64,000 nt of DNA from Belliella pelovolcani (GTDB lineage Bacteria > Bacteroidota > Bacteroidia > Cytophagales > Cyclobacteriaceae). Below are positions 7,768 to 45,154 of the stretch, one piece after another. The stretch covers positions 124,001 to 188,000 of the forward strand of contig NZ_FTOP01000001.1 in NCBI RefSeq assembly GCF_900156785.1, given 5' to 3'. Made by a program: the position numbers and the translations under genes. The notes under the pieces were generated by a model. The model made no database searches, was not told the DNA's origin, and was given only the letters and a program-made list of their open reading frames with translations. Position 1 is the first letter of the stretch, and each line of letters starts with the position of its first letter.

Positions 7768-8520
7768 CTACAACATCTTGATCTGATGAAGGAGCCAACT
7801 GTATTGGTTTCTACTGATTGGGATTTCCTTGCCTGCAATCTGTACAGCATCAGCCTGAATGCTTTCTATTTCTTCCAAATTGATCAAAAATGATTTATGA
7901 ACCCTTGCAAATCGATTCGGATCCAATTTACTTTCCAATTCTTTCAAGATTGAGCGGATTACATATTTCTTATCCCTCGTATAGACTTGGGTATAATTCG
8001 CATCCGCTTCAAAATAAATTATATCAGTGAACTTGAGCTTGACCAGCATGCCATTCGTTCTGATAAATAAACTATCCTTCAACACAAAATCCTCTGATCT
8101 TTCTGATCTTCCCTTTCTATCTTGTTCTTTCGCAAAATTAGCCAAAGCCATTTCTATGCCCGCAAAAATCTCCCGCTCATTATATGGCTTGACGAGATAC
8201 CCATACGGATGAACTCCCTTGGCCCTCTCAAGTGTCTGCATATCTGAATAAGACGACACAATGATAAAAGGTAGGTGGTAATTAGCATTGATGTCAGCCG
8301 CTAGCTCGATACCATCCTTACCTCCTTTGATATGAATATCAAGCAATGCTAAATCAGGATTGAACTCCTCAATCATCGCCAAAGCCTCTCGAGCACTGAT
8401 AGCTATACCACACACTTCGTAACCAAGCTCTTCTAATATGTCCTTGAGGTCCTCTGCAATGACTAACTCATCCTCGACTATTAAAACCCTTGTTTTTGTA
8501 GATGAATTTTGAATCTCCAT
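7768..8520 (-). CDS. LytTR-type response regulator
   Basis: A 250-residue two-domain regulator. Residues ~10-125 are a receiver domain (LIVEDELVIAEDL acidic patch, phospho-acceptor Asp61 in LALLDIH, the Ser in SSYS, the Lys in GYLVKPY). Residues ~150-248 are a LytTR DNA-binding domain (LFIRTNGMLVKLKFTDIIYF, VIRSILKELESKL, FARVHKSFLINLEEI). It heads the group with the TonB-like gene and the TPR kinase and is their likely cognate partner. Target promoters cannot be read from the sequence. Confidence 0.93.
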   Translation of the reverse strand: MEIQNSSTKTRVLIVEDELVIAEDLKDILEELGYEVCGIAISAREALAMIEEFNPDLALLDIHIKGGKDGIELAADINANYHLPFIIVSSYSDMQTLERAKGVHPYGYLVKPYNEREIFAGIEMALANFAKEQDRKGRSERSEDFVLKDSLFIRTNGMLVKLKFTDIIYFEADANYTQVYTRDKKYVIRSILKELESKLDPNRFARVHKSFLINLEEIESIQADAVQIAGKEIPISRNQYSWLLHQIKML

Positions 8521-8600
8521 GTCTTGTTAAAAATTCTCCAACTTGATAAAAGTAATTTACTCTATCTCAATGCACTAAAAATACACAAATCCTGCAAATG

Positions 8601-8625
8601 AAAAAAAACCAGAGAAAATCTCTGG
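8601..8625 (-). terminator. Intrinsic terminator hairpin (bidirectional form)
   Basis: CCAGAGA / TCTCTGG with a 3-base loop, flanked by eight A on the left and a T run (after CC) on the right. It could stop transcription on either strand; on the minus strand it would be a second terminator after the SulP gene. Confidence 0.7.
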
Positions 8626-8879
8626 CCTTTTTTATCAAATTAATCCCACATCCTTCGTAAAAAGGAATTTTCTAAACTAAGTAAATATTGCTTAAACTCA
8701 AATCTTACGTTAAAAAACTTATTGATCAGGAGATTATTTAAAAAATACCCTTTTTGAAATTATTTTAGTTGACATTGACTAGCCAGCTGTTCACCATCAT
8801 TTCTGAGGAGTTCCTTACCTTAAAATCAAAAATCCGAATTAGAAAAAACTTTTTGCAATAACCAGAAAGACCTATCTAA

Positions 8880-8908
8880 AAAAAAAGCCAACGACTAAAA
8901 TCGCGGGC
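8880..8908 (-). terminator. Terminator hairpin after the SulP gene
   Basis: GCC-AA-CGA pairs with TCG-CG-GGC around a 6-base loop, with A/T runs on both sides. The minus-strand U run follows the stem about 75 bases beyond the SulP stop. Confidence 0.6.
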
Positions 8909-8981
8909 CTTTTTTGTTTTATAGAGCATTGCGGATACTCTTACTTTTTTCTTAGAACGGCATTATACCATTTTCTTGTCA

Positions 8982-10520
8982 TCAATCTGTGACTATCTTA
9001 AAACTAGGATCATCAGCTGTATAATTGACATGGATGATTTTCTCAGCCTTAGATAGGAGCACCTTGCTGGAAGTATTGAGATGGCGGATATAAACCGTCT
9101 TCCCCAATTTCTCATATCGTTCTGTCACCTTGTGGATGGCATCAATTCCCGAATGATCTACAATCCTACTTTCAGCAAAATCTATCACAATTTCATTTGG
9201 GTCATTGATTGGATCAAACTTTTGTCCAAATGTCAATGCTGAAGCAAAAAACAAGGGACCATATACCTCGTAGTGCTTTACCCCATTTGCATCAATCCTT
9301 TTTCTGGTTCGGATCATTTTCGCATTTTCCCAAGCAAACACCAAAGCAGAAATAATCACACCAATCAACACAGCCAAAGCGAGGTTATGTAAGAATACAG
9401 TTACCAAGGTCACGGTCACCATCACCAATACATCGTGAAAAGGTACCTTTCTAAATACTTTCAAAGAAGCCCATTCAAATGTGCCTATAGCTACCATAAA
9501 CATCAAGCCTACCAAAGCAGCCATCGGCACCATCTCAATATAAGTAGACAGGAAAAGGATAAAAACCAAAAGCCCAATTGAGGCTACAATTCCAGAAATT
9601 CTATTTCTACCGCCCGCATTGACATTGATCAAGGACTGACCGATCATCGCACAGCCTCCCATTCCACCAAAGAAACCTGTGGTTAGATTGGCCATACCCT
9701 GAGCAACACATTCCTTATTACCATGTCCACGAGTCTCAGTGATTTCATCTATCAAGGTCAAGGTCAACAAACTCTCAATCAAGCCTACCCCTGCCATAAT
9801 TGCCGAATAGGGAAGGATGATCATCAATGTGTCCCAGTTCAATGGGACAACAGGTAAGTGAAACTCTGGCAGCCCTCCACTGATGGAAGCCAAATCCCCA
9901 ACAGTTCTTGTTTCTACACCACCGAAAATAACAATCACCGAAATGGTCAAAATAGCCACCAAGGCAGATGGAACCGCTGTAGTTAGCTTTGGCAAAAACT
10001 TGATAATAACCATAGTCAAAACTACCAAAGCAATCATCACATAAAGCGGACTTCCTGTCATCCATTCAGATACACCAGCGGCATTCTTTACCTTGAAATT
10101 CTCAAACTGAGCCATCCCAATCACTATTGCCAAGCCATTCACAAAGCCAAACATTACAGGATGAGGCACCAAGCGAATCAACTTTCCAAGCTTCAGTATC
10201 CCTACCAATATCTGGATCAAGCCCATCAATACCACAGCAGCAAAAAGATATTCTACGCCATGTGTAGCTACCAATGCTACAATGACCACAGCAATCGCGC
10301 CGGTAGCCCCTGAGATCATTCCTGGTCTACCTCCTAAAATAGAGGTAATCAAACCAATAATAAATGCAGTATATAAGCCAATCAGCGGACTCACTCCCGC
10401 TATCAATGAAAATGCAACTGCTTCAGGCACCAAGGCCAAGGCTACAGTCAAACCGGATAATACTTCATCTTTCAGATTTGCCTGCGTAGGTTTAAACAGG
10501 CGATAAAACATCTGTGTCAT
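8982..10520 (-). CDS. SulP family anion transporter with STAS domain
   Basis: A 512-residue inner-membrane protein. Residues ~10-400 hold 10-12 hydrophobic segments with the SulP signature near the N-terminus (LSGLTVALALVPEAVAFSLI, GLYTAF, ISGATGA). Residues ~425-510 are a cytoplasmic STAS domain (VIDFAESRIVDHSGIDAI). Members of the family move sulfate, bicarbonate or other anions, often with sodium; the substrate cannot be read from the sequence. Nothing in the neighbourhood (no sulfate assimilation or carbonic anhydrase genes) narrows it. Single-gene unit with its own terminator. Confidence 0.93.
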   Translation of the reverse strand: MTQMFYRLFKPTQANLKDEVLSGLTVALALVPEAVAFSLIAGVSPLIGLYTAFIIGLITSILGGRPGMISGATGAIAVVIVALVATHGVEYLFAAVVLMGLIQILVGILKLGKLIRLVPHPVMFGFVNGLAIVIGMAQFENFKVKNAAGVSEWMTGSPLYVMIALVVLTMVIIKFLPKLTTAVPSALVAILTISVIVIFGGVETRTVGDLASISGGLPEFHLPVVPLNWDTLMIILPYSAIMAGVGLIESLLTLTLIDEITETRGHGNKECVAQGMANLTTGFFGGMGGCAMIGQSLINVNAGGRNRISGIVASIGLLVFILFLSTYIEMVPMAALVGLMFMVAIGTFEWASLKVFRKVPFHDVLVMVTVTLVTVFLHNLALAVLIGVIISALVFAWENAKMIRTRKRIDANGVKHYEVYGPLFFASALTFGQKFDPINDPNEIVIDFAESRIVDHSGIDAIHKVTERYEKLGKTVYIRHLNTSSKVLLSKAEKIIHVNYTADDPSFKIVTD

Positions 10521-22287: not shown

Positions 22288-22640
22288 TGGTTTAGAAATT
22301 AATTGTGTCTGAGTTATTTGGTACAGACCAGTATGAAAAAGCAGTGCCAAGAGGGATTTTAATTTATAATGTATTGATTATCAATATATTATTTAAATTC
22401 AAAAAAATATCTTTGTTCCAATTCCGAACAGTTTGATTGTTCGCTTTGGGTACAATGGGAGTGATGAATTGTAGTGCGGGGTTCCAAATCTCAACTAGGA
22501 GTAGATTGCATCTACGCTATAATATAAATCTACACTTACGCTTTCTAAAGTTTGGTAACTTCTTATCGTAGAATAGACTAAGCGTAGATTGCATCTAAGC
22601 CAAACTATTCTGTGAATTTGTAATTCTATTTCTAAAAATA
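22288..22640. other. Upstream region of the receptor-like gene
   Basis: A/T-rich, with a patch of palindromes at 22501-22597 (listed separately). No convincing promoter or gene was found. Confidence 0.5.
22501..22597. repeat. Pair of GTAGATTGCATCTA palindromes
   Basis: GTAGATTGCATCTAC (22501-22515) and GTAGATTGCATCTA (22584-22597) are the same palindromic core (arms GTAGAT/ATCTAC around TGC). The related palindrome GAGATTGCAAATCTC sits at 29771-29785, at the other end of the cassette region. They look like dispersed REP-type palindromes. Confidence 0.6.
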
Positions 22641-22847
22641 TTGAATACCCTTTTATTAAAGGGGAAAGATTAGCATATATTTAAATATAGCCCCCAAATC
22701 GTGGTATGATTATATAACTAATTGATTATAAATTTGATACATAAGTATTTCTTCCAGAGAATTAAGACTTGAACAAGGGCAGCTTGACTATTATTTTGAT
22801 AAACTATTTATTAAATTGAGGACATATTATTTTTTGGATACGTCTTG
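22641..22847 (+). repeat. Upstream module, copy 1 of 3
   Basis: About 207 bp. Nearly identical by eye to 23958-24165 and 26758-26964; landmarks shared in order are TTTTATTAAAGGGGAAAGAT, AAATCGTGGTATGATTATAT, AATTGATTATAAATTTGA and AATTAAGACTTGAA. Each copy ends in a promoter-like AAATTGA ... TTTTTG ... CGTCT and is followed by a lipoprotein gene. It probably carries the promoter of the cassette. Confidence 0.85.
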
Positions 22848-22883
22848 ATATCGAAAATGATACTTCATAGAAAAGAATTTGAT

Positions 22884-23441
22884 ATGAAAAAATTAAGCAA
22901 CTTATTGATTTTGGGAATGATCATGTTGGGGTCTTGTACAGAAGACGGTATACCTAATCCTCCAGTAGAAGTGGAAGCTCAGCTTACAAATACAGACGGA
23001 GAACCCACTTGGGTTTTTCAGGAAGGAGAAGATATTTTATTCGAATACTCCATAATAAACCTGACGGAGGAGACGCTCACTTGGTATTTCGACAGTCTGT
23101 TTAATTTCCAAGGGATGTTTACAGTCTATAAGGACGTAGCTCCAAATCCGGAAATGCCAAACGGGGGAGTTGTCAAAATAGGTGCTCCGCAAACAGGGAA
23201 ATTGTTTAGGGATGCTAGACTAGGTAGAGTTTTACCTGAAAATGCTGAAATGAAGGTGATATTATCTTGGTTAGGAGATAGGGAATACACTTATATGTTT
23301 GATAAATGGTCTATTTTTTACCATGAAGAAAGAAATGCACTACCTCCAGGGAAGTATTTTACGGAATTTGAACAAAGGATTAACTTCGCAAAGTTCAATC
23401 CATTTTATGGGAAATTCAGGTTTGATTTTGAAATAAGGTAA
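22884..23441 (+). CDS. Lipoprotein with BsuPI-like beta-sandwich, cassette 1
   Basis: A 185-residue lipoprotein (the start at the ATG 22884 puts the lipobox MLGSC near residue 18; upstream in-frame TTG and ATG starts would precede the signal). The mature part (GEDILFEYSIINLTEETLTW, then VLPENAEMKVILSWLGD and LPPGKY) follows the strand order of the BsuPI / intracellular proteinase inhibitor fold. It is the first gene of cassette 1, 13 bases ahead of a collapsed secreted-protein gene. It may be a periplasm-facing partner or inhibitor of the lost neighbour, but the fold assignment is only by pattern. Confidence 0.7.
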   Translation: MKKLSNLLILGMIMLGSCTEDGIPNPPVEVEAQLTNTDGEPTWVFQEGEDILFEYSIINLTEETLTWYFDSLFNFQGMFTVYKDVAPNPEMPNGGVVKIGAPQTGKLFRDARLGRVLPENAEMKVILSWLGDREYTYMFDKWSIFYHEERNALPPGKYFTEFEQRINFAKFNPFYGKFRFDFEIR

Positions 23442-23453
23442 ATAAAGAAGATT

Positions 23454-23875
23454 ATGAGAAAATTTTCAGTTTTATTCGCTTTAAATTTTATAATCGCCTA
23501 CCAAGTTTTTAGCCAAATAAGGTTAGAATATAGTGTGGATAGAAAATTAGTGGAGGAAAGTGGTGTATATCAAACCAAGTTTAATTATCCCCGCATCAAT
23601 CTACCGGAATTTGATTTTTCAGAACTGAGGGAAAAAAGTTTGAAAGCGTCTCCTAACGAACCTTTTCAATTCGGAAAGGAATTCGATTTGAAATACAAAG
23701 AGATCTAACGTCTTTTGAAGTAAGCCTTTTCGATGTCTTAGGTCAGGAAATCATCAGCAGGGCAGCAGCCACAGATGAAGCAACCCTAGACCTCAGTAAA
23801 CTCAAAAAAGGGCGCTACTATATCCACATCTACTACAAAGAAGCGATCATTAGAAAACAGATCAAAGTGGAATAG
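23454..23875 (+). pseudogene. Collapsed secreted T9SS protein, cassette 1
   Basis: The ATG at 23454 opens a signal peptide (VLFALNFIIAYQVFSQ) and about 60 residues that resemble the start of a T9SS protease propeptide (PFQFGKEFDL), then a stop at 23706. The DNA from 23690 to the TAG at 23873 is 62 codons of the same T9SS tail as the other cassettes (RDLTSFEVSLFDVLGQEI to IRKQIKVE) but in another frame. A deletion joined the two parts at the shared words GAAATACAAAGAGAT, so the protein body is gone and the tail is not translated in frame. Confidence 0.85.
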
Positions 23876-23957
23876 GTCAGAAGAAAGGGGCGAGGAAAAA
23901 GAAGCAAGGTGAACTGTACCTTCCTGCATAATTTCAAATATTAGAACGAGACAATTC

Positions 23958-24165
23958 TTGAATGCTCTTTTATTAAAGAGGAAAGATTAGCATACATTTA
24001 AATATCTCCCCCAAATCGTGGTATGATTATATAAGTAATTGATTATAAATTTGAGATATGAGTATTTTTTCCAATGAATTAAGACTTGAATATGGACAGT
24101 CTGGTTAATAGTTATTGAAACTGTTTATTTAATTGAGGACATATTGGGATTTGGTTACGTCTGGT
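23958..24165 (+). repeat. Upstream module, copy 2 of 3
   Basis: Same landmarks as copies 1 and 3. The similarity to copy 3 continues upstream through the spacer to the end of the preceding T9SS tail (23873-23958 versus 26673-26758), so the duplicated unit is tail plus spacer plus module. Confidence 0.85.
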
Positions 24166-24258
24166 GAATATTAACATATAATCAAATGTTTAAAAAAATA
24201 AAATAATCTGGAATGAACTATATGTTATGTGCTTCATTTTATTCTATAAAAATTAGTT

Positions 24259-24639
24259 ATGAAAAATTTATTGATTTTATTGTTTTCGATATTGATTATG
24301 GGTTTTAGTTGCACGGATAGCACTAAACCTGTAAGTAGAAATTGTCTAACTGGGGTTATAATTGGAAACGGATGTACTAATGAAGGATTTTTGATTGATG
24401 TTGCAGAACTAAAAGATAAAGAAATTGAAGTGGCCTCGGTTACAATCACCAACAAAACATATTTCAATGTAATAATGAGTCTTGGACTTCCCTATGAAGA
24501 TGATTGGCAAGTTGGAGACATAATATACTTTGAAATAAGTGAAATTCCAGTTGAAAAGGATTCTTATTTCTGTCAGGATTTATATCTTACTGCACCTCCC
24601 TATAATTTGATCAAGGTTTCCAAAAATAATTGTTTATGA
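24259..24639 (+). CDS. Small lipoprotein, cassette 2
   Basis: A 126-residue lipoprotein with a typical signal (LLILLFSILIMGFSC) and a Cys-containing mature domain (NCLTGVIIGNGC, DSYFCQDLYL). Unlike the cassette 1 and 3 lipoproteins in sequence. Its last codons overlap the protease start (ATGA at 24636-24639), indicating tight translational coupling and therefore a matched pair. I do not recognise a fold. Confidence 0.72.
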   Translation: MKNLLILLFSILIMGFSCTDSTKPVSRNCLTGVIIGNGCTNEGFLIDVAELKDKEIEVASVTITNKTYFNVIMSLGLPYEDDWQVGDIIYFEISEIPVEKDSYFCQDLYLTAPPYNLIKVSKNNCL

Positions 24640-26675
24640 ATAAATTTGTTTTGTTATTAGTTTGTTATATATCAGTTGTATTTGGAAACAACTTGTTTTC
24701 CCAAGATTATTACTGGTCTTCAGATAGGAAAATCTCTATCGTTAAGGATACTTCGATTTTATTAATCAAGTTTAAGGAAGATCATGATTACAAAAGTACT
24801 TGGGATTTTTTCAAAGATAACAAAACAACGCACAAGAATACCCTTATGGAGGAGAAGAAAATAGCCATAATTAATATTATTGATTATGATCCAAGTAAAT
24901 TAGAAGAAATTCTTAATAAGTCTAGTTCGATAGAGTATTATACACCAATTTTTAAATCCAACAATACTCCCCTTTATCCAACTGATAAAATTATTTTAAA
25001 ACCTAAATCGGCTGGGGATTTTTCTGAAATTAATCGAAAATTTAGCAACTATTTTTCATCTTTTTACAAGAACAGGTATGGGGTATATATTATAACATTA
25101 AACAATTATTCAAATTTAATACCTGTTTCGAATGAAATATACGAGAGTAATTTGACTGAATACTGCCATCCAAATTTTATAGTGGAGCTACAGCATGATA
25201 ATGATCCTTTATATCCTGAACAATATTATTTGAATAATACTGGACAATTTGGTGGGACAGTTGGAATTGATATTAATGTTTTGGGAGCATGGAATAGTAT
25301 TGGTACTTTTTCTAGTGAATGTAACATCAATGTCGCAATTCTTGATGATGGTGTTGAAAATCATGAAGACTTTGATGGTAGGGTTTTGGTAGGTCGTACT
25401 ATTGGAAACCCTACAGGTTTTGGGGCACCTGGTGTTGGTTCGGCCCATGGGCAGGCTTGTGCAGGTATAGTTTCAGCTACGCATAATAATGAATTGGGAA
25501 TTAAAGGAGTAGCACCTAATACCAATATTATACCAGTGAGGATTTTGGGTGTCGCTGCAGATTTAATTGATATAGCTGATGCAGTTGATTGGGCTTGGGA
25601 CGAAGGGATGGCAGATATACTAAGTAATTCATGGGGATTAGGGCCAGGAAACTGTACTCTTACAGGGGTTGATTTTAACAATATTATTGATGCATATGAT
25701 AGGGCAAGAGATCAGGGAAGGGGAGGTCTTGGTTCAATTGTGGTTTTTTCTTCCGGTAATCATGGGAGCTGCATATCATTTCCCAGAAATATTAATGGAG
25801 CTATTACTGTGGGTGCAATTAATAATAATGGGCAAATTTGGAATTATAGTAACACAGGGCCCGAAATGAACCTTGTCGCTCCATCCGGTGATACTGATTT
25901 AAATGGTAATGTTAGAACTACTGACAGAATGGGTAATAATGGATATGAAAATGGTAATTACACCAACAGATTTGGAGGCACTTCAGCAGCTGCACCTCAG
26001 GTCGCAGGTGTTGCAGCATTAATGCTCTCAGTTAACCCAAACTTGACCGAAATCCAAGTGAGAACCATTTTACAGCAAACTGCAACAGACATGGGTCCAG
26101 CCGGTTTTGATAATACTTTCGGTTATGGCCGAGTAAATGCTGAAAAAGCTGTCAAAGCAGCCCTACCCACCATCTCCGGCTCTGATTACCTATGCTCCTC
26201 TTCAACCTATTCTATTCAGAACCCATCTACTGGAAGTACAATTTCATGGTCTGTTTCTCCTACGCATCTATTTTCAGGAGCTACTTCTGGCTCAGGCGCC
26301 ACAGCCAATCTCAGTCCAGCAAGCGGCGCAGCTTCAGGACAGGCTATATTGACATTTGAAGTTACGACAACATGCGGTGTCATCAATGTGGATTGTACAA
26401 TTTTTGGTGGAGATCCCTTTAGAATCTATCCTAATCCCACCACTGACTACGTGACCGTCAGTAAAGTAAGCCATCAAAAACTTGGTGAAGAAATACTAAG
26501 AGATCAAACGTCTTTCGAAGTAAGTCTTTTCGATGTTGTGGGTCAAGAAATCATCAGCAGGACAGCAGCCACAGATGAAGCAACCCTAGACCTCAGTAAA
26601 CTCAAAAAAGGACGCTACTATATCCACATCTACTACAAAGAAGCGATCATTAGAAAGCAAATCAAAGTGGAATAG
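24636..26675 (+). CDS. Secreted subtilisin-like serine protease with T9SS sorting domain, cassette 2
   Basis: A 679-residue S8 peptidase. An in-frame TTG at 24630 is ignored in favour of the ATG. Signal peptide ~1-22. Residues ~25-190 are an N-terminal prodomain. The catalytic Asp (~237, in VAILDDGVENHEDF), His (~271, in SAHGQACAGI), oxyanion Asn (~375, SSGNHGS) and Ser (~450, GGTSAAAP) are all present. Residues ~511-586 are an Ig-like module nearly identical to one in the cassette 3 protease. Residues ~587-679 form a type A T9SS sorting domain (YPNPTTDYVTVSK) that should be cleaved and attached to the cell surface. Confidence 0.95.
   Translation: MNKFVLLLVCYISVVFGNNLFSQDYYWSSDRKISIVKDTSILLIKFKEDHDYKSTWDFFKDNKTTHKNTLMEEKKIAIINIIDYDPSKLEEILNKSSSIEYYTPIFKSNNTPLYPTDKIILKPKSAGDFSEINRKFSNYFSSFYKNRYGVYIITLNNYSNLIPVSNEIYESNLTEYCHPNFIVELQHDNDPLYPEQYYLNNTGQFGGTVGIDINVLGAWNSIGTFSSECNINVAILDDGVENHEDFDGRVLVGRTIGNPTGFGAPGVGSAHGQACAGIVSATHNNELGIKGVAPNTNIIPVRILGVAADLIDIADAVDWAWDEGMADILSNSWGLGPGNCTLTGVDFNNIIDAYDRARDQGRGGLGSIVVFSSGNHGSCISFPRNINGAITVGAINNNGQIWNYSNTGPEMNLVAPSGDTDLNGNVRTTDRMGNNGYENGNYTNRFGGTSAAAPQVAGVAALMLSVNPNLTEIQVRTILQQTATDMGPAGFDNTFGYGRVNAEKAVKAALPTISGSDYLCSSSTYSIQNPSTGSTISWSVSPTHLFSGATSGSGATANLSPASGAASGQAILTFEVTTTCGVINVDCTIFGGDPFRIYPNPTTDYVTVSKVSHQKLGEEILRDQTSFEVSLFDVVGQEIISRTAATDEATLDLSKLKKGRYYIHIYYKEAIIRKQIKVE
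26169..26394 (+). repeat. Shared Ig-like module, copy in cassette 2
   Basis: Nearly identical at DNA level to 28850-29073 in cassette 3. At TGTGGAT (26388-26394) this copy jumps straight to the sorting domain, whereas cassette 3 has 342 further bases between two TGTGGAT words. Confidence 0.85.
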
Positions 26676-26757
26676 GTCAGGAAAAATAAGCGAGGAAAAA
26701 GAAGAAAGGCAAACCGAACCTACCTGCAAAATTTCAAAGATTAGAACGAGACAATTC

Positions 26758-26964
26758 TTGAATGCTCTTTTATTAAAGGGGAAAGATTAGCATACGTTTA
26801 TATATATCACCCAAATCGTGGTATGATTATATAAGTAATTGATTATAAATTTGAGATACGAGTATTTTTTCCAATGAATTAAGACTTGAACATGGGCAGC
26901 TTTACTTTTATTTTTTAAAACTATTTATTAAATTGAAACAGGTTAGATTTTTGACTCGTCTTAA
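26758..26964 (+). repeat. Upstream module, copy 3 of 3
   Basis: About 207 bp; the same landmarks as copies 1 and 2. It follows the 3' end of the subtilase and precedes the cassette 3 lipoprotein by about 60 bases. Confidence 0.85.
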
Positions 26965-27023
26965 CATTATCAGGGATTAGATTACTTGAGTCAGATTCGA
27001 AAGCCATAAAAACTGTAGAAATA

Positions 27024-27488
27024 ATGAAAAATAAAAAGATTCAATCAGTAAGAGCGTGGGGGGTTGGATTGCTGTTTTTGGTATTAATCATGATGGCTTC
27101 TTGTCAGGAAGATGCTGCTCCAGATGATGAATTGAGATGTCAGGTGGAGGCAATAGATGGCTCAGAAGACGAAGTAGTGGGAAAATGGAAATTGATAAAA
27201 GCAGAAATTCTTTTTGGTAACCCACGGAATGAAGATTACTCCTGCGATAATATAATTTATCATTATCGGAATGATGGAATCCTGAGAATAACTAACAACA
27301 CTTCTGATATAAGTCATGGTTCAGGAGAGTACCCCTATGAATTTATTCCTGCTAGTTTGAGCGAGAATGGTTATCCTATTTTGAAAAGGGCGAATTCAAT
27401 TTGGCCATGCCATATTGAAAAAAATAATATGACTATATATCTGATGGCTTTAGATGGTCCAATTTTACACTTTTTAAGGACTGAATAA
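27024..27488 (+). CDS. Lipocalin-like lipoprotein, cassette 3
   Basis: A 154-residue lipoprotein (lipobox MMASC). The mature segment VVGKWKLIKAEILFGNP, then CDNIIYHYRNDGILRITN, has the G-x-W start and strand pattern of lipocalin-like domains common in Bacteroidota. Lipocalin-like barrels include known inhibitors of metalloproteases, and the gene that follows is a metalloprotease. The link is inference from position and fold, not sequence identity. The spacing to the protease gene is 22 bases. Confidence 0.7.
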   Translation: MKNKKIQSVRAWGVGLLFLVLIMMASCQEDAAPDDELRCQVEAIDGSEDEVVGKWKLIKAEILFGNPRNEDYSCDNIIYHYRNDGILRITNNTSDISHGSGEYPYEFIPASLSENGYPILKRANSIWPCHIEKNNMTIYLMALDGPILHFLRTE

Positions 27489-27510
27489 TTCTCAATTAAA
27501 TTCTTCAACT

Positions 27511-29697
27511 ATGAAAAAAATGTTTTACAGATTATATTTCCTAGCTTTATTTTTTTACTCAACATTAGGATTCTCACAAGAGAACCTTTTGTATAGGAGT
27601 ATAAAAGATGCCAAGACTTTAGAAATCGACTTTCAAGTCGTATCATCTGTTTTTTCACAAACTTTGGTTGATAAGACAATCTTACACCATTTTGAAGATT
27701 CAAAAGAGATTGATTTTTTACAATACGAAAACACTGGGTTAAAAGATTTGAAAAAATTTATTTCACTGGAACTCCCACTTAGAACAGGTAAAATCCAACT
27801 GGAACTGCTTGAAGTTCCCGATTCTTTTTACAATTATGAAGTGGTGAACAGCGATGGTAAAAAGTTGCCTGCCAACAGGGATATCAAACACTACCGAGGA
27901 ATTGTGAAGGACGACCCGAACAGCTTGGTAGCCATCAGTTTTATGGAAGATGAAGTTATGGGTCTGATTGCTACCGAAGAGGGTAATTTTAATCTTGCAT
28001 TGGATAAAAAAAGTGGAAACCATATTTTTTATAATGACAAGAATCTAAAGAAGAAAGCGGAGTTTCAATGTGAGACACATGGTCATGGCGCGACTAATTA
28101 TGATACAGAAGTACTTTCCAAATCTTCTAAAACAGCTCTTCGATCTGAAGATGAATGTGTACGTTTGTATTTCGAAACCGAACAGGACATTTTCCTAGCC
28201 AGAGGAAATGTCGCCTCGGTTGAAAGTTTTGTTACCGCAGTATTCAATCAAGTCGCTACACTTTATCAGAATGAAAATATTGAAACCACCCTTTCTGAAA
28301 TTTTTGTTTGGACAACGCCAGATCCTTACACAGCAAATCAACCTGAAGATCTTTTGAATGAATTCCAAGGGCATAGAACAATATTCAACGGTGATCTTGC
28401 TCAATTACTCACATTTAGAGGCGGTAACCTTGCTGGCTGGGCAGCAGGATTCAATGGACTATGTAATACTGATGTTTCTGATAGGTTATCTGTTTCGATG
28501 ATCCCCAACAACTTCGAAATTTTCCCTGTGTTTAGTGAATCTGTGTTCGTGGTTGCACATGAATTTGGACATTTGTTTGGCTCTCGCCATACTCATGCCT
28601 GTGTGTGGAATGGTAATAACACAGCTATTGATGGATGCTCGGGTTGTATGGAAAACCCAGACCCTAATTTAGGAGGATGTCAAAATTGCCCAAATCCGGG
28701 CATTCCATCGGGAGGTGGGACAATTATGAGTTATTGCGTATTTCAGAATGTTGGAGTTAACTTTAATTTAGGCTTTGGTCTTCAACCTGGAAATGTGATC
28801 AGGAATAGCGTGGCAAACGCTGATTGCCTTTGCGAATGTGTCAGCGCCACCATCTCCGGTCCCGACTTCCTCTGCTCCACATCTTCCTATTCTCTTCAAA
28901 ACCCGCCTACTGGAAGTACAATTTCATGGTCTGTTTCTCCTACGCATCTATTTTCAGGAGCTACTTCTGGCTCAGGCGCCACAGCCAATCTCAGTCCAGC
29001 AAGCAGCGCAGCTTCAGGACAGGCTATATTGACATTTGAAGTTACGACAACATGCGGTGTCATCAGTGTGGATAAACGCATTTGGGTGGGTAATGCAACT
29101 GTTAATGACATCACTTTTTCCAATAGCGTAGATGAATTCCAGCATTGGTGCTCAAGTGATGATGGCAATACCTTCAGCATTAATTCTCTCCTTGATCCTG
29201 ACAATACACAATGGGAAGCCAGGCTTTTGAATTGGCCGAGTTTGACTGTAGCCTATACCTCTCCTTCTGTCTATACTGGTGCTGGGCCTCATCAGTGGTT
29301 TTATGTTCCTCCTTTCCCTACTCAAAATAATGGCTACTATGTGTTTCAGGTGAGGAATATCAATGCTTGTAGCCCATCTAACTGGATACCGGGGTTTGAG
29401 GTGGAATATGTGGATTGTACAATTTTTGGTGGAGATCCTTTTAGAGTCTATCCTAATCCCACCACTGACTACGTGACCGTCAGTAAAGTAAGCAATCAAA
29501 AACTTGGGGAAGAAATACAAAGAGATCAAACGTCTTTTGAAGTAAGTCTTTTCGATGTCGTGGGACAGGAAATCATCAGCAGGGCAGCAGCCACAGATGA
29601 AGCAACCCTAGACCTCAGCAAACTCAAAAAGGGACGCTACTATATCCACATCTACTACAAAGAAGCGATCATTAGAAAACAGATCAAAGTGGAATAG
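27511..29697 (+). CDS. Secreted metzincin metalloprotease with T9SS sorting domain, cassette 3
   Basis: A 728-residue peptidase. Signal peptide ~1-22 (LALFFYSTLGFSQ), prodomain ~25-200, and a reprolysin-like catalytic domain with HEFGHLFGSRH (HExxHxxGxxH, ~350) followed by the Met-turn TIMSYC. Residues ~446-520 are the Ig-like module shared with cassette 2. Residues ~521-634 are unique, and ~640-728 form a type A T9SS sorting domain almost identical to the other cassettes. Probably a surface-attached or released endopeptidase. The prodomain suggests autoprocessing. Confidence 0.95.
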   Translation: MKKMFYRLYFLALFFYSTLGFSQENLLYRSIKDAKTLEIDFQVVSSVFSQTLVDKTILHHFEDSKEIDFLQYENTGLKDLKKFISLELPLRTGKIQLELLEVPDSFYNYEVVNSDGKKLPANRDIKHYRGIVKDDPNSLVAISFMEDEVMGLIATEEGNFNLALDKKSGNHIFYNDKNLKKKAEFQCETHGHGATNYDTEVLSKSSKTALRSEDECVRLYFETEQDIFLARGNVASVESFVTAVFNQVATLYQNENIETTLSEIFVWTTPDPYTANQPEDLLNEFQGHRTIFNGDLAQLLTFRGGNLAGWAAGFNGLCNTDVSDRLSVSMIPNNFEIFPVFSESVFVVAHEFGHLFGSRHTHACVWNGNNTAIDGCSGCMENPDPNLGGCQNCPNPGIPSGGGTIMSYCVFQNVGVNFNLGFGLQPGNVIRNSVANADCLCECVSATISGPDFLCSTSSYSLQNPPTGSTISWSVSPTHLFSGATSGSGATANLSPASSAASGQAILTFEVTTTCGVISVDKRIWVGNATVNDITFSNSVDEFQHWCSSDDGNTFSINSLLDPDNTQWEARLLNWPSLTVAYTSPSVYTGAGPHQWFYVPPFPTQNNGYYVFQVRNINACSPSNWIPGFEVEYVDCTIFGGDPFRVYPNPTTDYVTVSKVSNQKLGEEIQRDQTSFEVSLFDVVGQEIISRAAATDEATLDLSKLKKGRYYIHIYYKEAIIRKQIKVE
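28850..29073 (+). repeat. Shared Ig-like module, copy in cassette 3
   Basis: Matches 26169-26394. It is bounded on the right by TGTGGAT (29067-29073), and a second TGTGGAT starts the sorting domain segment at 29409, 342 bases later, an exact multiple of three. Confidence 0.85.
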
Positions 29698-29742
29698 GTC
29701 AGGAAAAAGGGGCGAGGGAAAAGAAGAAAGGAACTTAAAGTG

Positions 29743-29785
29743 GGATTACAAATCCTTCTAATCTGGTTTCGAGATTGCAAATCTC
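29743..29785. repeat. REP-like palindrome pair
   Basis: GGATTACAAATCC (29743-29755) and GAGATTGCAAATCTC (29771-29785), 15 bases apart, are imperfect palindromes of one type. They follow the last cassette and mirror the palindromes at 22501-22597. Confidence 0.55.
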
Positions 29786-29811
29786 AAAAAGCTAGATGGT
29801 GATGAAAACAC

Positions 29812-31119: not shown

Positions 31120-32250
31120 TTAGAATATCAACTCAAATATCTCTTTTCTCACACCTTCATTGATGATCAAGGCCAGAATCAAAGAAACCAGCAAGCCTAT
31201 CAATGCACGTGTCATGTCTTTTTTAGCCAGTCTATAAGCCCTCACCAGCCTTGCCTTACGCTTCTTGAGTTTCCGCGATTTGGCTAAGGCAATTGAAAGC
31301 TCTCTACCTCCCAGCAAACCAATAAACACCCAAGTGGTACTCATCGGAACATTATTGACCATCTTAAAGTAGAACAAAATAATCGCATAGACAAAATCTA
31401 CAATAGTAGCCGCTCTGACATCAGTGACCTTGGTCTTTTCATTGACTATACCTTGGATCCTGTCACCCTTGAGGTAAAATAGAAAGCCTAAGCCTAAGAA
31501 TACAAATCCTGCATAGGCTACAAATTCCCATACATTCAACTGTCTCGGTAAGAATACCGCAATATTGGCAGCATCCTGCATGATCCATACTGCCCAGAGT
31601 GTCCCTGATGTAATCCATTGTAATACATACCAATAAGGCTTTGGCTTGCCTTTGAGGTAAGTTTTGACAAATTTCTCCAAAACAAACCATACCACTATAG
31701 CGATCCCAAATGCTAACAAATAGCCCAAGAAGCTTTTTTGCATCACACTGACAATCGTCCCGGCCTTGTATGTGAAAACATTAAGCAAAAGAAAAGTAGT
31801 TGACACGGGCATTCTCATCCTAGTCATGACCAGTAGGACTATAGGAGCTGCCAACTGAAGGAACACAAAACTCTGAGGTGCTTGCTCCAAACCTGGTACT
31901 TGTAATCTTTCATAGCTGACGTCACCATTGAATGTAATCCAGCTATATGTTACCGTACCAACAAAAATAACCCCCATAAACAACCATAACCAATACCACT
32001 TCCTATTCTGATTGGAAGCAATAAAGGTACCTATGGTCTGAATACTATCATTGGCAATGGCCGAGTAGGCTGCCAATGCAAAACCAAACCACATCGCCGC
32101 ATATGTATATGGTGTCAGGATTCCGGCAACTGATACCAAAATAAGAATAATGACCAAAAAGGATTTTTCTTTCTTTGTAAAATCAAAAAGTGCGTAGGAT
32201 GCTTTTGAGAGCGCGTCCTGATTGATGTTTTGATCTTTGAGCTTAGCCAT
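31120..32250 (-). CDS. PiT-family inorganic phosphate transporter-like protein
   Basis: A 376-residue membrane protein with about ten helices. NDSIQTIGT (~residue 67) resembles the ANDxxNAxGT signature of phosphate permeases and is repeated in a degenerate form. The second half contains PMSTTWVFIGLLGGRELS, like the second PiT signature (PxSTTH). The basic tail (LKKRKARLVRAYRLAKKD) is cytoplasmic. The family couples phosphate uptake to protons or sodium; the changed residues in the first signature may mean altered specificity. It is divergent from another phosphate-type transporter, with the palindrome at 32313-32327 between them. Confidence 0.75.
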   Translation of the reverse strand: MAKLKDQNINQDALSKASYALFDFTKKEKSFLVIILILVSVAGILTPYTYAAMWFGFALAAYSAIANDSIQTIGTFIASNQNRKWYWLWLFMGVIFVGTVTYSWITFNGDVSYERLQVPGLEQAPQSFVFLQLAAPIVLLVMTRMRMPVSTTFLLLNVFTYKAGTIVSVMQKSFLGYLLAFGIAIVVWFVLEKFVKTYLKGKPKPYWYVLQWITSGTLWAVWIMQDAANIAVFLPRQLNVWEFVAYAGFVFLGLGFLFYLKGDRIQGIVNEKTKVTDVRAATIVDFVYAIILFYFKMVNNVPMSTTWVFIGLLGGRELSIALAKSRKLKKRKARLVRAYRLAKKDMTRALIGLLVSLILALIINEGVRKEIFELIF

Positions 32251-43949: not shown

Positions 43950-44528
43950 ATGAGATCACGCTTCCATATATTATTCTTAGTTTCTATACTCACTATTTTT
44001 TGTTCACATTTCGATGCCATTGCCCAAGAGGAAGCTGAAATTTTCACTGCCAAAAACTCGATATTTGTTGAGCTAGGGGGAAATTCAATTTATTATTCAG
44101 TGAATTACAATAGAATCCTACTTCAGAAGGATAAATTAAAAATCTCGGGAAGTGCTGGGTTTTCAGTATTCAAACAAAGTGGAGGGAGTCAGTCTTCAAA
44201 CATTTCTCCCTTTTGGTCACCTATGTTACCTCTTGAAATTTCCGCTTTCTGGGGAAAGTCAAATCATCATTTGGAAATTGGCACCGGTCTTACTTTTTAT
44301 GCTTCTCGTGCATTAGTATTCAATCCAGATGTGCCTAATAATTTTCAACAAGACAAATCTCTAGAAGCAATCCTGCCCCTGAGAATAGGCTACAGGTATC
44401 AAAAACCAGAAGGAGGTTTCTTCTTCAGAGTTGGTTACACTCCTGGATTCAATCTTTTTCTCAGTTCAGAAGATAGTCCAAAATTCCATCCGCTATGGGG
44501 AGGAATTAGCCTAGGAAAAAGTTTCTGA
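43950..44528 (+). CDS. Outer-membrane beta-barrel-like protein, paralogue 1
   Basis: A 192-residue exported protein. Signal peptide ~1-25 (LTIFCSHFDAIAQ). EEAEIFTAKNSIFVELGGNS and IGYRYQKPEGGFFFRVGYTP are nearly repeated in the following gene. Beta-rich pattern typical of small outer-membrane barrels. The two genes are a tandem duplication 44 bases apart. No function known. Confidence 0.82.
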   Translation: MRSRFHILFLVSILTIFCSHFDAIAQEEAEIFTAKNSIFVELGGNSIYYSVNYNRILLQKDKLKISGSAGFSVFKQSGGSQSSNISPFWSPMLPLEISAFWGKSNHHLEIGTGLTFYASRALVFNPDVPNNFQQDKSLEAILPLRIGYRYQKPEGGFFFRVGYTPGFNLFLSSEDSPKFHPLWGGISLGKSF

Positions 44529-44572: not shown

Positions 44573-45154
44573 ATGACACTATTAAAAAATAAATTTTTGT
44601 TATTCACTTCCATCATCCTTTTGCTGTGTTTGCAATTAGAAGCATTTGCCCAAGAGGAGGCTGAAACTTTCACTGCTAAAAACTCGGTATTTGTTGATCT
44701 CGGGGCAAATGCACTTCAGTATGCCGTCAACTATGGGCGTATTATACATCAAAACAATAAATTAAAAATAGCGGCAAGTGTAGGTTTTTCGATGAGATAT
44801 CGCCAACCTAGTGAACCCATTCATTCTGGTTATTTGATTCCTGTCATTCCAGCGGAAATTACAGCATTTCTTGGGAGAGATAAACATCATTTGGAATTTG
44901 GAACAGGATTTTTCACTATTTTAAACCGAAGATTTCTTTTAGACCCCGATCAAGCAGGCGAACTTCAAGAAAAAACATATTGGGATAGATTTGTGATGGC
45001 TAGAATAGGCTATCGCTATCAGAAGCCTAACGGAGGCTTCTTTTATAGAATAGGGTACACACCTACTTTAGCTTTCTATAACTCTGGGGTTTCAGAAAAC
45101 CCTATTCAGTTTTTACCCTTTGGATTAGGAGTTAGCCTTGGGAAAAGTTTTTGA
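44573..45154 (+). CDS. Outer-membrane beta-barrel-like protein, paralogue 2
   Basis: A 193-residue exported protein (LLLCLQLEAFAQ). Shares EEAETFTAKNSVFVDLGANA, LKIAASVGFSM, IGYRYQKPNGGFFYRIGYTP and the end LGVSLGKSF with its neighbour (LGKSF there too). Divergence in the middle, plus identical ends, points to relaxed selection or a mid-sequence change of ligand. Confidence 0.82.
   Translation: MTLLKNKFLLFTSIILLLCLQLEAFAQEEAETFTAKNSVFVDLGANALQYAVNYGRIIHQNNKLKIAASVGFSMRYRQPSEPIHSGYLIPVIPAEITAFLGRDKHHLEFGTGFFTILNRRFLLDPDQAGELQEKTYWDRFVMARIGYRYQKPNGGFFYRIGYTPTLAFYNSGVSENPIQFLPFGLGVSLGKSF

Follow-up and report, generated by a model that had tools for sequence, protein, structure and literature searches.

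In the accessible part of the paper on the KLIKK proteases of Tannerella forsythia, six serine and metalloproteases are described from two gene clusters, with a small, unrelated lipoprotein gene before each. Their virtually identical C-terminal domains are called unusual and in need of explanation there, and the question of origin 'requires further research' (PMC4404884). According to what is available of a second paper, the pot/protease pairs were the most variable virulence genes analyzed and co-varied between strains, and the lipoproteins inhibit their KLIKK proteases, for which then-unpublished data were cited (PMC7296668). A third, as far as it is accessible, reports no evidence of mobile elements at the KLIKK loci, the origin of which 'remains to be investigated' (PMC13298647). 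Here we analyzed a stretch of 64,000 nucleotides (nt) of the Belliella pelovolcani genome (contig NZ_FTOP01000001.1, positions 124,001 to 188,000 of the forward strand; hereafter the window, with positions counted from its first letter), in which an array of three cassettes occupies 22455–29811. We consider this array to be a mobile island of protease–inhibitor cassettes in which the inhibitor role is predicted, and give this reading, jointly with the whole explanation set out below, a probability of roughly 0.7.

The locus resembles the KLIKK/potempin system in several respects. The proteases belong to several classes (S8 and M12B in the window; trypsin-like, M43, and S8 in related arrays), and sequence-unrelated small lipoprotein genes lie directly 5′ of the window proteases. 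The array proteases of one genome that were compared share a near-identical C-terminal domain of the type IX secretion system (T9SS), and the C-terminal extension is conserved at its start and end and variable in between, the variable middle being present here in cassette 3 only. The initial annotation of the window, made from the sequence alone, missed this precedent, and the gene arrangement itself is therefore not new. In contrast to the KLIKK/potempin system, the hosts are environmental Cyclobacteriaceae with proteases of classes S8, M12B, S1, and M43, a repeated leader precedes each lipoprotein gene of the window, and there is direct evidence of payload transfer across genera. The tail ends with IRKQIKVE in the window and with RRQIRVER in a genome of another genus (G091), not with Lys-Leu-Ile-Lys-Lys, so that we do not file the system as a KLIKK member despite its presumably similar working. 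It represents a known kind of protease–inhibitor system, in a variant that is traded horizontally; gene pairs of this type had already been described. No report of KLIKK/potempin-like arrays or of payload exchange in Cyclobacteriaceae was found in the literature searched, which leaves many journals uncovered; nor did it contain the exchange across genera behind local flanks (leader and tail) or the occurrence of such arrays across this family.

Results

A three-cassette array with repeated leaders and tails

Genomes compared are denoted by G numbers, with G000 for the window genome, and extracted loci by L numbers; all other coordinates are those of the window. Open reading frames (ORFs), repeats, and sequence revealed three leaders, two complete lipoprotein–protease pairs, and one lipoprotein gene with a protease stub in the array. 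The leaders that the initial annotation had placed at 22641, 23958, and 26758 proved real. Leader 1 was 84.5% identical to leader 2 (22641–22845 versus 23958–24162) and 88.3% identical to leader 3 (22641–22819 versus 26758–26936), and the island repeats scored 202–582 bits, far above the 30.7 bits of the strongest self-repeat among 20 order-1 Markov shuffles. A whole-genome DNA search for further loci returned only these three places, all in the array. The tails were near identical as annotated (94–95% among the cassettes), but the repeat had been listed incompletely: it runs unbroken from the tail through the spacer into the next leader (23690–24136 versus 26490–26936, 90%), and a second common block marks the start of the C-terminal extension (26167–26393 versus 28847–29073, 93%). 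The content of guanine and cytosine is mosaic, with 26–27% in the leaders, 33% in the cassette-2 payload, ~44% in tails 2 and 3, and 39–40% in the remaining window.

Pfam assigned the protease of cassette 2 to the subtilases (Peptidase_S8) and that of cassette 3 to the M12B reprolysin-like metzincins, with the motif HEFGHLFGSRH, in agreement with the payloads annotated. The lost third payload is that of cassette 1, where lip1 is intact and an 84-codon protease stub joins a truncated tail. Both intact proteases carry Por_Secre_tail above the Pfam cut-off, and the T9SS translocon gene sprA was found in the genome (SprA, E 4e-164). The lipoproteins, the lipobox of which was assigned by motif alone, matched no Pfam family at E 0.1 (lip1, lip2, and lip3) and are mutually unrelated as had been stated; blastp gave alignments of 18–33 residues only, with a best E of 1.6e-4. 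The leader, a 5′ region, is probably the promoter, and no structured RNA was detected in the leaders by Rfam at E 0.5. The sequence TTTGG.TACGTC is conserved near the leader–payload junction in two genera (leader ends near 22840 and 24155, and several leaders of G091) and may be a promoter element or a recombination hot spot.

Payloads common to different genera in resident flanks

Two payloads were common to different genera at 96–98% DNA identity, and in both cases the adjoining sequence was that of the resident genome. The first is the payload of cassette 2. Positions 24200–26000, with lip2 and the subtilase, were 96% identical to G091 over 1801 nt, against a background of 64–75% in matches longer than 100 nt when 15.1 kb and 19.0 kb were compared (shorter matches reached 88% over 42 nt). 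The synonymous divergence (dS) was 0.10 for the protease and 0.08 for lip2. Identity per 150 nt was 0.92–0.99 across 24213–25862 and 0.24–0.49 over most of the leader, and on the 3′ side, after 26012, it dropped via 0.75–0.57, where the catalytic domain ends and the extension starts, to at most 0.51. The counterpart is cassette 4 of a 34-kb array, which does not stand at the orthologous site; it lies at 5.30–5.33 Mb of G091, and the right flank of the window maps to 1.32 Mb. Contamination is unlikely because each copy sits in the flanks of its own genome. The G091 array also contains a 3.7-kb cassette twice, at 98.1% identity, and the payload classes of related arrays are S8, M12B, and S1 in G091 and M43 in G038.

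The second payload is common to Belliella alkalica (G001; L015 6958–8792) and Cecembia rubra (G059), which were 98.4% identical over 1836 nt spanning mature lip3 and the metzincin body, against a background of 66–73% in matches longer than 100 nt. The identity fell sharply on both sides, with the upstream break inside the lip3 gene and the downstream break close to where the extension begins. In the G001 cassette, the signal peptide and the 120 nt immediately 5′ of the lip3 gene were Belliella-like (89.7–91.6%), and the tail matched that of Belliella G007 (88%).

The last 88 residues of 19 hand-selected proteases from 10 genomes, eight of the proteases being from G091, were then compared as tails. 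Tails from one genome but different protease families were on average 92% identical (87.5–100%; 29 pairs, 27 of them from G091, one from the window, and one from G049), whereas those of the same family in different genera averaged 37% (21–77%; 29 pairs) although the bodies were 49–95% identical. Pairs differing in both family and genus averaged 40% (109 pairs). The grouping by genome was matched by 0 of 5000 shuffles and that by family by 4829 of 5000; the pairs are mutually dependent, and these counts are not to be taken as probabilities. The tails track the genome, not the protease family.

Distribution, partners, and predicted fold of the lipoproteins

Lipoprotein families were searched for in 295 genomes of the family Cyclobacteriaceae, drawn from a larger group. 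Lip3-type genes were found in 20 of these, the window's own included, with hits as weak as E 5e-4. The partners of lip3 were checked at 18 of 30 places (17 and the window; 12 hits that were weak, partial, or in tandem were left out). An M12B protease came next in nine, a 73-residue M12B fragment in one, and no protease in eight, and no other protease class was an immediate partner at these places. For lip2 all six rows were covered, two of which are halves of one G038 gene. In both the window and G091, a subtilase of one and the same type came next; there was no protease within 4 kb on the 3′ side in G101 and only that of the next cassette in G038, and the G145 result is based on 420 nt. Lip1-type genes, checked at 11 of 15 places (10 and the window; four left out), were followed by S8 in two (behind a second lipoprotein gene), S1 in two, and M43 in one, and had no intact adjacent partner in six.

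Some of these loci were rearranged. In G119 (L067 8438–9685), lip3 and its metzincin gene are separated by a Mutator-family transposase gene, and two further transposase genes lie upstream. In G038 (L076 ~8175–9565), lip3-type genes or fragments stand in tandem (four hits), the best one without a protease within 4 kb on the 3′ side. The M12B protease behind lip3 is broken into several frames, with lip3 open, in G001 (L015 7544–9463), G091 (L063 6063–8145), and G049 (L069 5759–7904).

Potempins adopt either an OB-fold or an eight-stranded up-and-down barrel. A model of lip3, in which blocks of the barrel have predicted local distance difference test scores (pLDDT) of 75–94, was compared with PDB by Foldseek, and the first match was potempin E of T. 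forsythia (8ehc; E 0.013, probability 1.00), with a template modeling (TM) score of 0.63–0.65 by target and a root-mean-square deviation of 4.5. This modeled resemblance may reflect a common fold, which by itself does not establish inhibition by lip3. No convincing sequence relatives of lip1 and lip3 were found in PDB (best 0.11–0.13), nor any of the metzincin at 1e-3. The lip2 structure, a single-sequence model with a pLDDT of 38.5, was discarded.

The island and its empty site in Belliella

The array is flanked by the gene of a TonB-dependent receptor and that of a superoxide dismutase, and cassettes were present at this site in two of eight Belliella genomes (G000 and G003). In G001 and in the sister genome G004, which is 91–100% identical per 100 nt beside the island, the flanks were joined directly, giving a clean empty site. 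G002 has only a 50-nt piece of a tail end there, next to a PIN-domain gene (L017 9668–10111), and no cassette match was found at the island site in G005, G006, and G007.

The island of G003 has identical junctions and contains lip1 (98% amino-acid identity), two lip3-type genes that encode identical proteins, and another subtilase paired with a lipoprotein of its own, that is, one complete pair and three of four lipoproteins without a protease. The strain comparison thus revealed partly other payloads behind the same leader at the same site, as the initial annotation had anticipated for swapping. The dS of lip1 between the window and G003 was 0.018; that of the neighboring TonB gene was 4.5, and the deaminase gene and the gene at 31120–32250 were saturated. 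The intergenic left flank (from 22300) was 0.95 identical to G003 and 0.63–0.72 identical to G001, G002, G005, G006, and G007. The left part of the island at least, including lip1 and some flank, has therefore passed recently between the lineages of the window and G003. Since lip1 is near identical, yet the other payloads are mostly different, the turnover is rapid.

The right flank was 0.90–0.99 identical to G003 up to ~30410 and 0.62–0.87 beyond. As proof of a block transfer from G003, the segment 29812–30410 was dropped, because G002 lacks the array and yet comes close to this similarity. The synonymous differences of the dismutase gene from the window were 0.23 in G003, 0.36 in G002, and 0.16 in the sister (G001 and G005 were left out). 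The ratio of nonsynonymous to synonymous divergence of orphan lip1 between the window and G003 (0.50) comprises too few changes to speak for selection.

Features of the island

The coordinates are listed in Table 1. The near-palindrome copies at the left end lie at 22494–22525 and 22577–22608 and have the core GTAGATTGCATCTA; similar palindromes occur 5′ of the G001 cassette. The sequence GATTGCAAATC was rejected as an island-end element (four matches in the window versus 3.2 expected). Elsewhere in the window, a 144-bp direct repeat is present at 44020–44163 and 44646–44788 (78% identity).

Table 1. Features of the cassette island in window coordinates (UTR, untranslated region; aa, amino acids)
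Feature	Position	Strand	Basis or remark
Left end of the island, with two short near-palindrome copies	22455..22640	.	Not in sister G004; same junction in G003
Leader 1	22641..22845	+	Repeat comparison
lip1 lipoprotein, orphan, protease lost	22884..23441	+	TTG 22845 in ORF list, ATG 22884 likelier; 98% aa identity in G003
Stub of the lost cassette-1 protease, 84 codons	23454..23708	+	Tail homology starts within the stub at 23690
Truncated T9SS tail, cassette 1	23690..23909	+	94.5% to the cassette-3 tail
Leader 2	23958..24162	+	Repeat comparison
Exchanged cassette-2 payload (5′ UTR, lip2, prodomain, most of the catalytic domain)	24131..25990 (approximate ends)	+	96% to G091
lip2 lipoprotein	24259..24639	+	ORF, homologue search
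Predicted T9SS-exported subtilase S8, 681 aa as listed	24630..26675	+	ATG 24636 likelier start; Peptidase_S8 and Por_Secre_tail
Common start of the C-terminal extension, cassette 2	26167..26393	+	Repeated at 28847–29073
T9SS tail, cassette 2	26386..26709	+	Repeat comparison
Leader 3	26758..26962	+	Repeat comparison
lip3 lipoprotein, predicted barrel with 10 strand segments	27024..27488	+	Nearest PDB fold by Foldseek, potempin E
Predicted T9SS-exported M12B-type metzincin, 728 aa	27511..29697	+	Pfam
Common start of the C-terminal extension, cassette 3	28847..29073	+	Repeat of 26167–26393
T9SS tail, cassette 3	29408..29731	+	Repeat comparison
Right end of the island	29732..29811	.	Junction comparison across Belliella

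Discussion

We propose that a cassette would consist of an exchangeable payload between a local leader and a local tail. The payload would comprise a small lipoprotein gene and, behind it, the part of a secreted-protease gene that encodes the prodomain and catalytic domain, and the tail would be the T9SS sorting domain that directs the protease to export. Exchange would occur by homologous recombination with leader, signal-peptide, catalytic-core, and tail sequences as arms, and unequal crossing-over and gene conversion inside the array would duplicate, delete, and homogenize cassettes. Payloads are shared across genera, the flanks are local, the site is empty in close relatives, and cassettes have been duplicated and lost. 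By analogy with the potempins, the lipoprotein may be a membrane-anchored inhibitor that would shield the producer's envelope from its own protease. With such a role, it would make sense that lipoprotein and protease travel as a pair and that lipoproteins often occur without a protease.

Several observations weigh against this proposal. Belliella leaders differ too much from those of G091 for direct homologous crossing-over, so that intermediates or a later homogenization of the flanks would be needed. Farther upstream of the ~120 nt that are Belliella-like, the G001 leader differs from Belliella, and one tail of G038 is 99% identical to a tail of G049, another genus, indicating that tails can move too. 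At the right flank of the island, G002 reaches 0.85–0.95 identity without having an array, and the superoxide dismutase gene there is conserved. Lip1-type genes precede several protease classes in different genomes, which fits poorly with strict cognate pairing. As for the fold, the lip3 model was built on seven sequences and was good in one of five models, the TM score of potempin E by query was just 0.42, no Foldseek match was obtained at E 0.001, and the VIA Z of potempin E (9.7) equaled that of the lipocalin-like protein 4qrl (9.7), other lipocalin-like proteins being slightly lower.

Alternatively, cassettes may have been imported whole, leader and tail included, and the foreign flanks overwritten later by gene conversion from resident cassettes. 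The high identity of tails across unrelated proteases within a genome (87.5–100%) is what such concerted evolution predicts, the flanks of G091 and Belliella can hardly be aligned, which makes a direct double crossover unlikely, and G038 and G049 have common tails across genera. Against it, the breakpoints lie near the ends of the payload, where donor and recipient sequences are conserved (the lip3 signal peptide, and the catalytic core with the start of the extension), as direct recombination into a resident related cassette would also explain, and the 18-kb locus of G001 has a single cassette with no second one alongside. We regard this route as a serious possibility that falls short of even odds. 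Payload turnover is strongly supported. The modular swapping claimed in the initial annotation stands in so far as payloads of 96–98% identity lie between different local flanks; whole-cassette import followed by homogenization of the flanks accounts for this equally well.

It is improbable that the lipoproteins are secretion partners or surface anchors of the proteases instead of inhibitors. The lipoprotein gene lies 5′ of the protease gene on the same strand in the cassettes examined, and lip1 types pair with several protease classes, both of which would suit a partner in secretion. The window lipoproteins are, however, mutually unrelated despite the common secretion tail, indicating that it is the catalytic domain they follow, not the export signal. 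It is also common for a lipoprotein to lack a protease (eight of 18 lip3 places), and the nearest fold is that of a known peptidase inhibitor.

Integron gene cassettes are likewise arrays of exchangeable units in fixed flanks. Unlike these, every unit of the present array has its own leader, and the breakpoints are variable. A site-specific or integron-like system acting at the leader 3′ end (TTTGG.TACGTC) and the extension start could account for the precise empty site and for the conserved leader end, which was seen in three of seven Belliella and four of seven G091 leaders aligned. Yet the two documented events break at different positions (in the 5′ UTR and inside the lip3 gene), and no Pfam recombinase was found among nine neighboring genes (five of the window and four at the edges of the G091 array; two of the nine match no family, and the search covered neighbors, not whole genomes). 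The Rfam search was negative as well, though Rfam does not model such sites. Such a system is very improbable. A plain paralogous family that arose by tandem duplication, its ends conserved and its payloads without turnover, the outcome that the initial annotation had set against its own proposal, fits the tandem order and common ends but is contradicted by the other payload set of G003, the cross-genus payload identity between divergent flanks seen with G091, and the genome-specific tails, and has next to no probability.

The array also recalls the TANFOR-domain polymorphic toxins of Bacteroidetes, which, in the accessible part of their description, combine a variable effector body, a constant delivery part, and an adjacent protective protein in a T9SS setting (PMC7073777); in the island the protective role is presumed. 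In those toxins the invariant portion is at the N-terminus, with the immunity gene on the downstream side, as far as that source is available (PMC7073777), whereas in the window it is at the C-terminus, proteases are the effectors, and a lipoprotein encoded upstream is the presumed guard. Orphan lipoproteins, putative immunity factors, accumulate (in G003, three without a protease beside one pair). On a tentative and rather unlikely extension of our proposal, the T9SS-delivered proteases would attack neighboring cells, the lipoproteins would be surface immunity factors, and orphans would be kept against the proteases of neighbors, so that payload pairs would circulate between genera as variable effectors that plug into the expression and export module of the respective genome.

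The Tannerella KLIKK papers leave open why unrelated proteases have virtually identical export domains and where these come from. The environmental relatives suggest an answer, namely that catalytic bodies and their partner lipoproteins move horizontally, whereas each genome keeps its export tail and leader. The result is a model of T9SS effectors as plug-in modules that can be tested, together with new candidate protease–inhibitor pairs from several protease clans and a natural experiment on the loss versus retention of presumed inhibitors.

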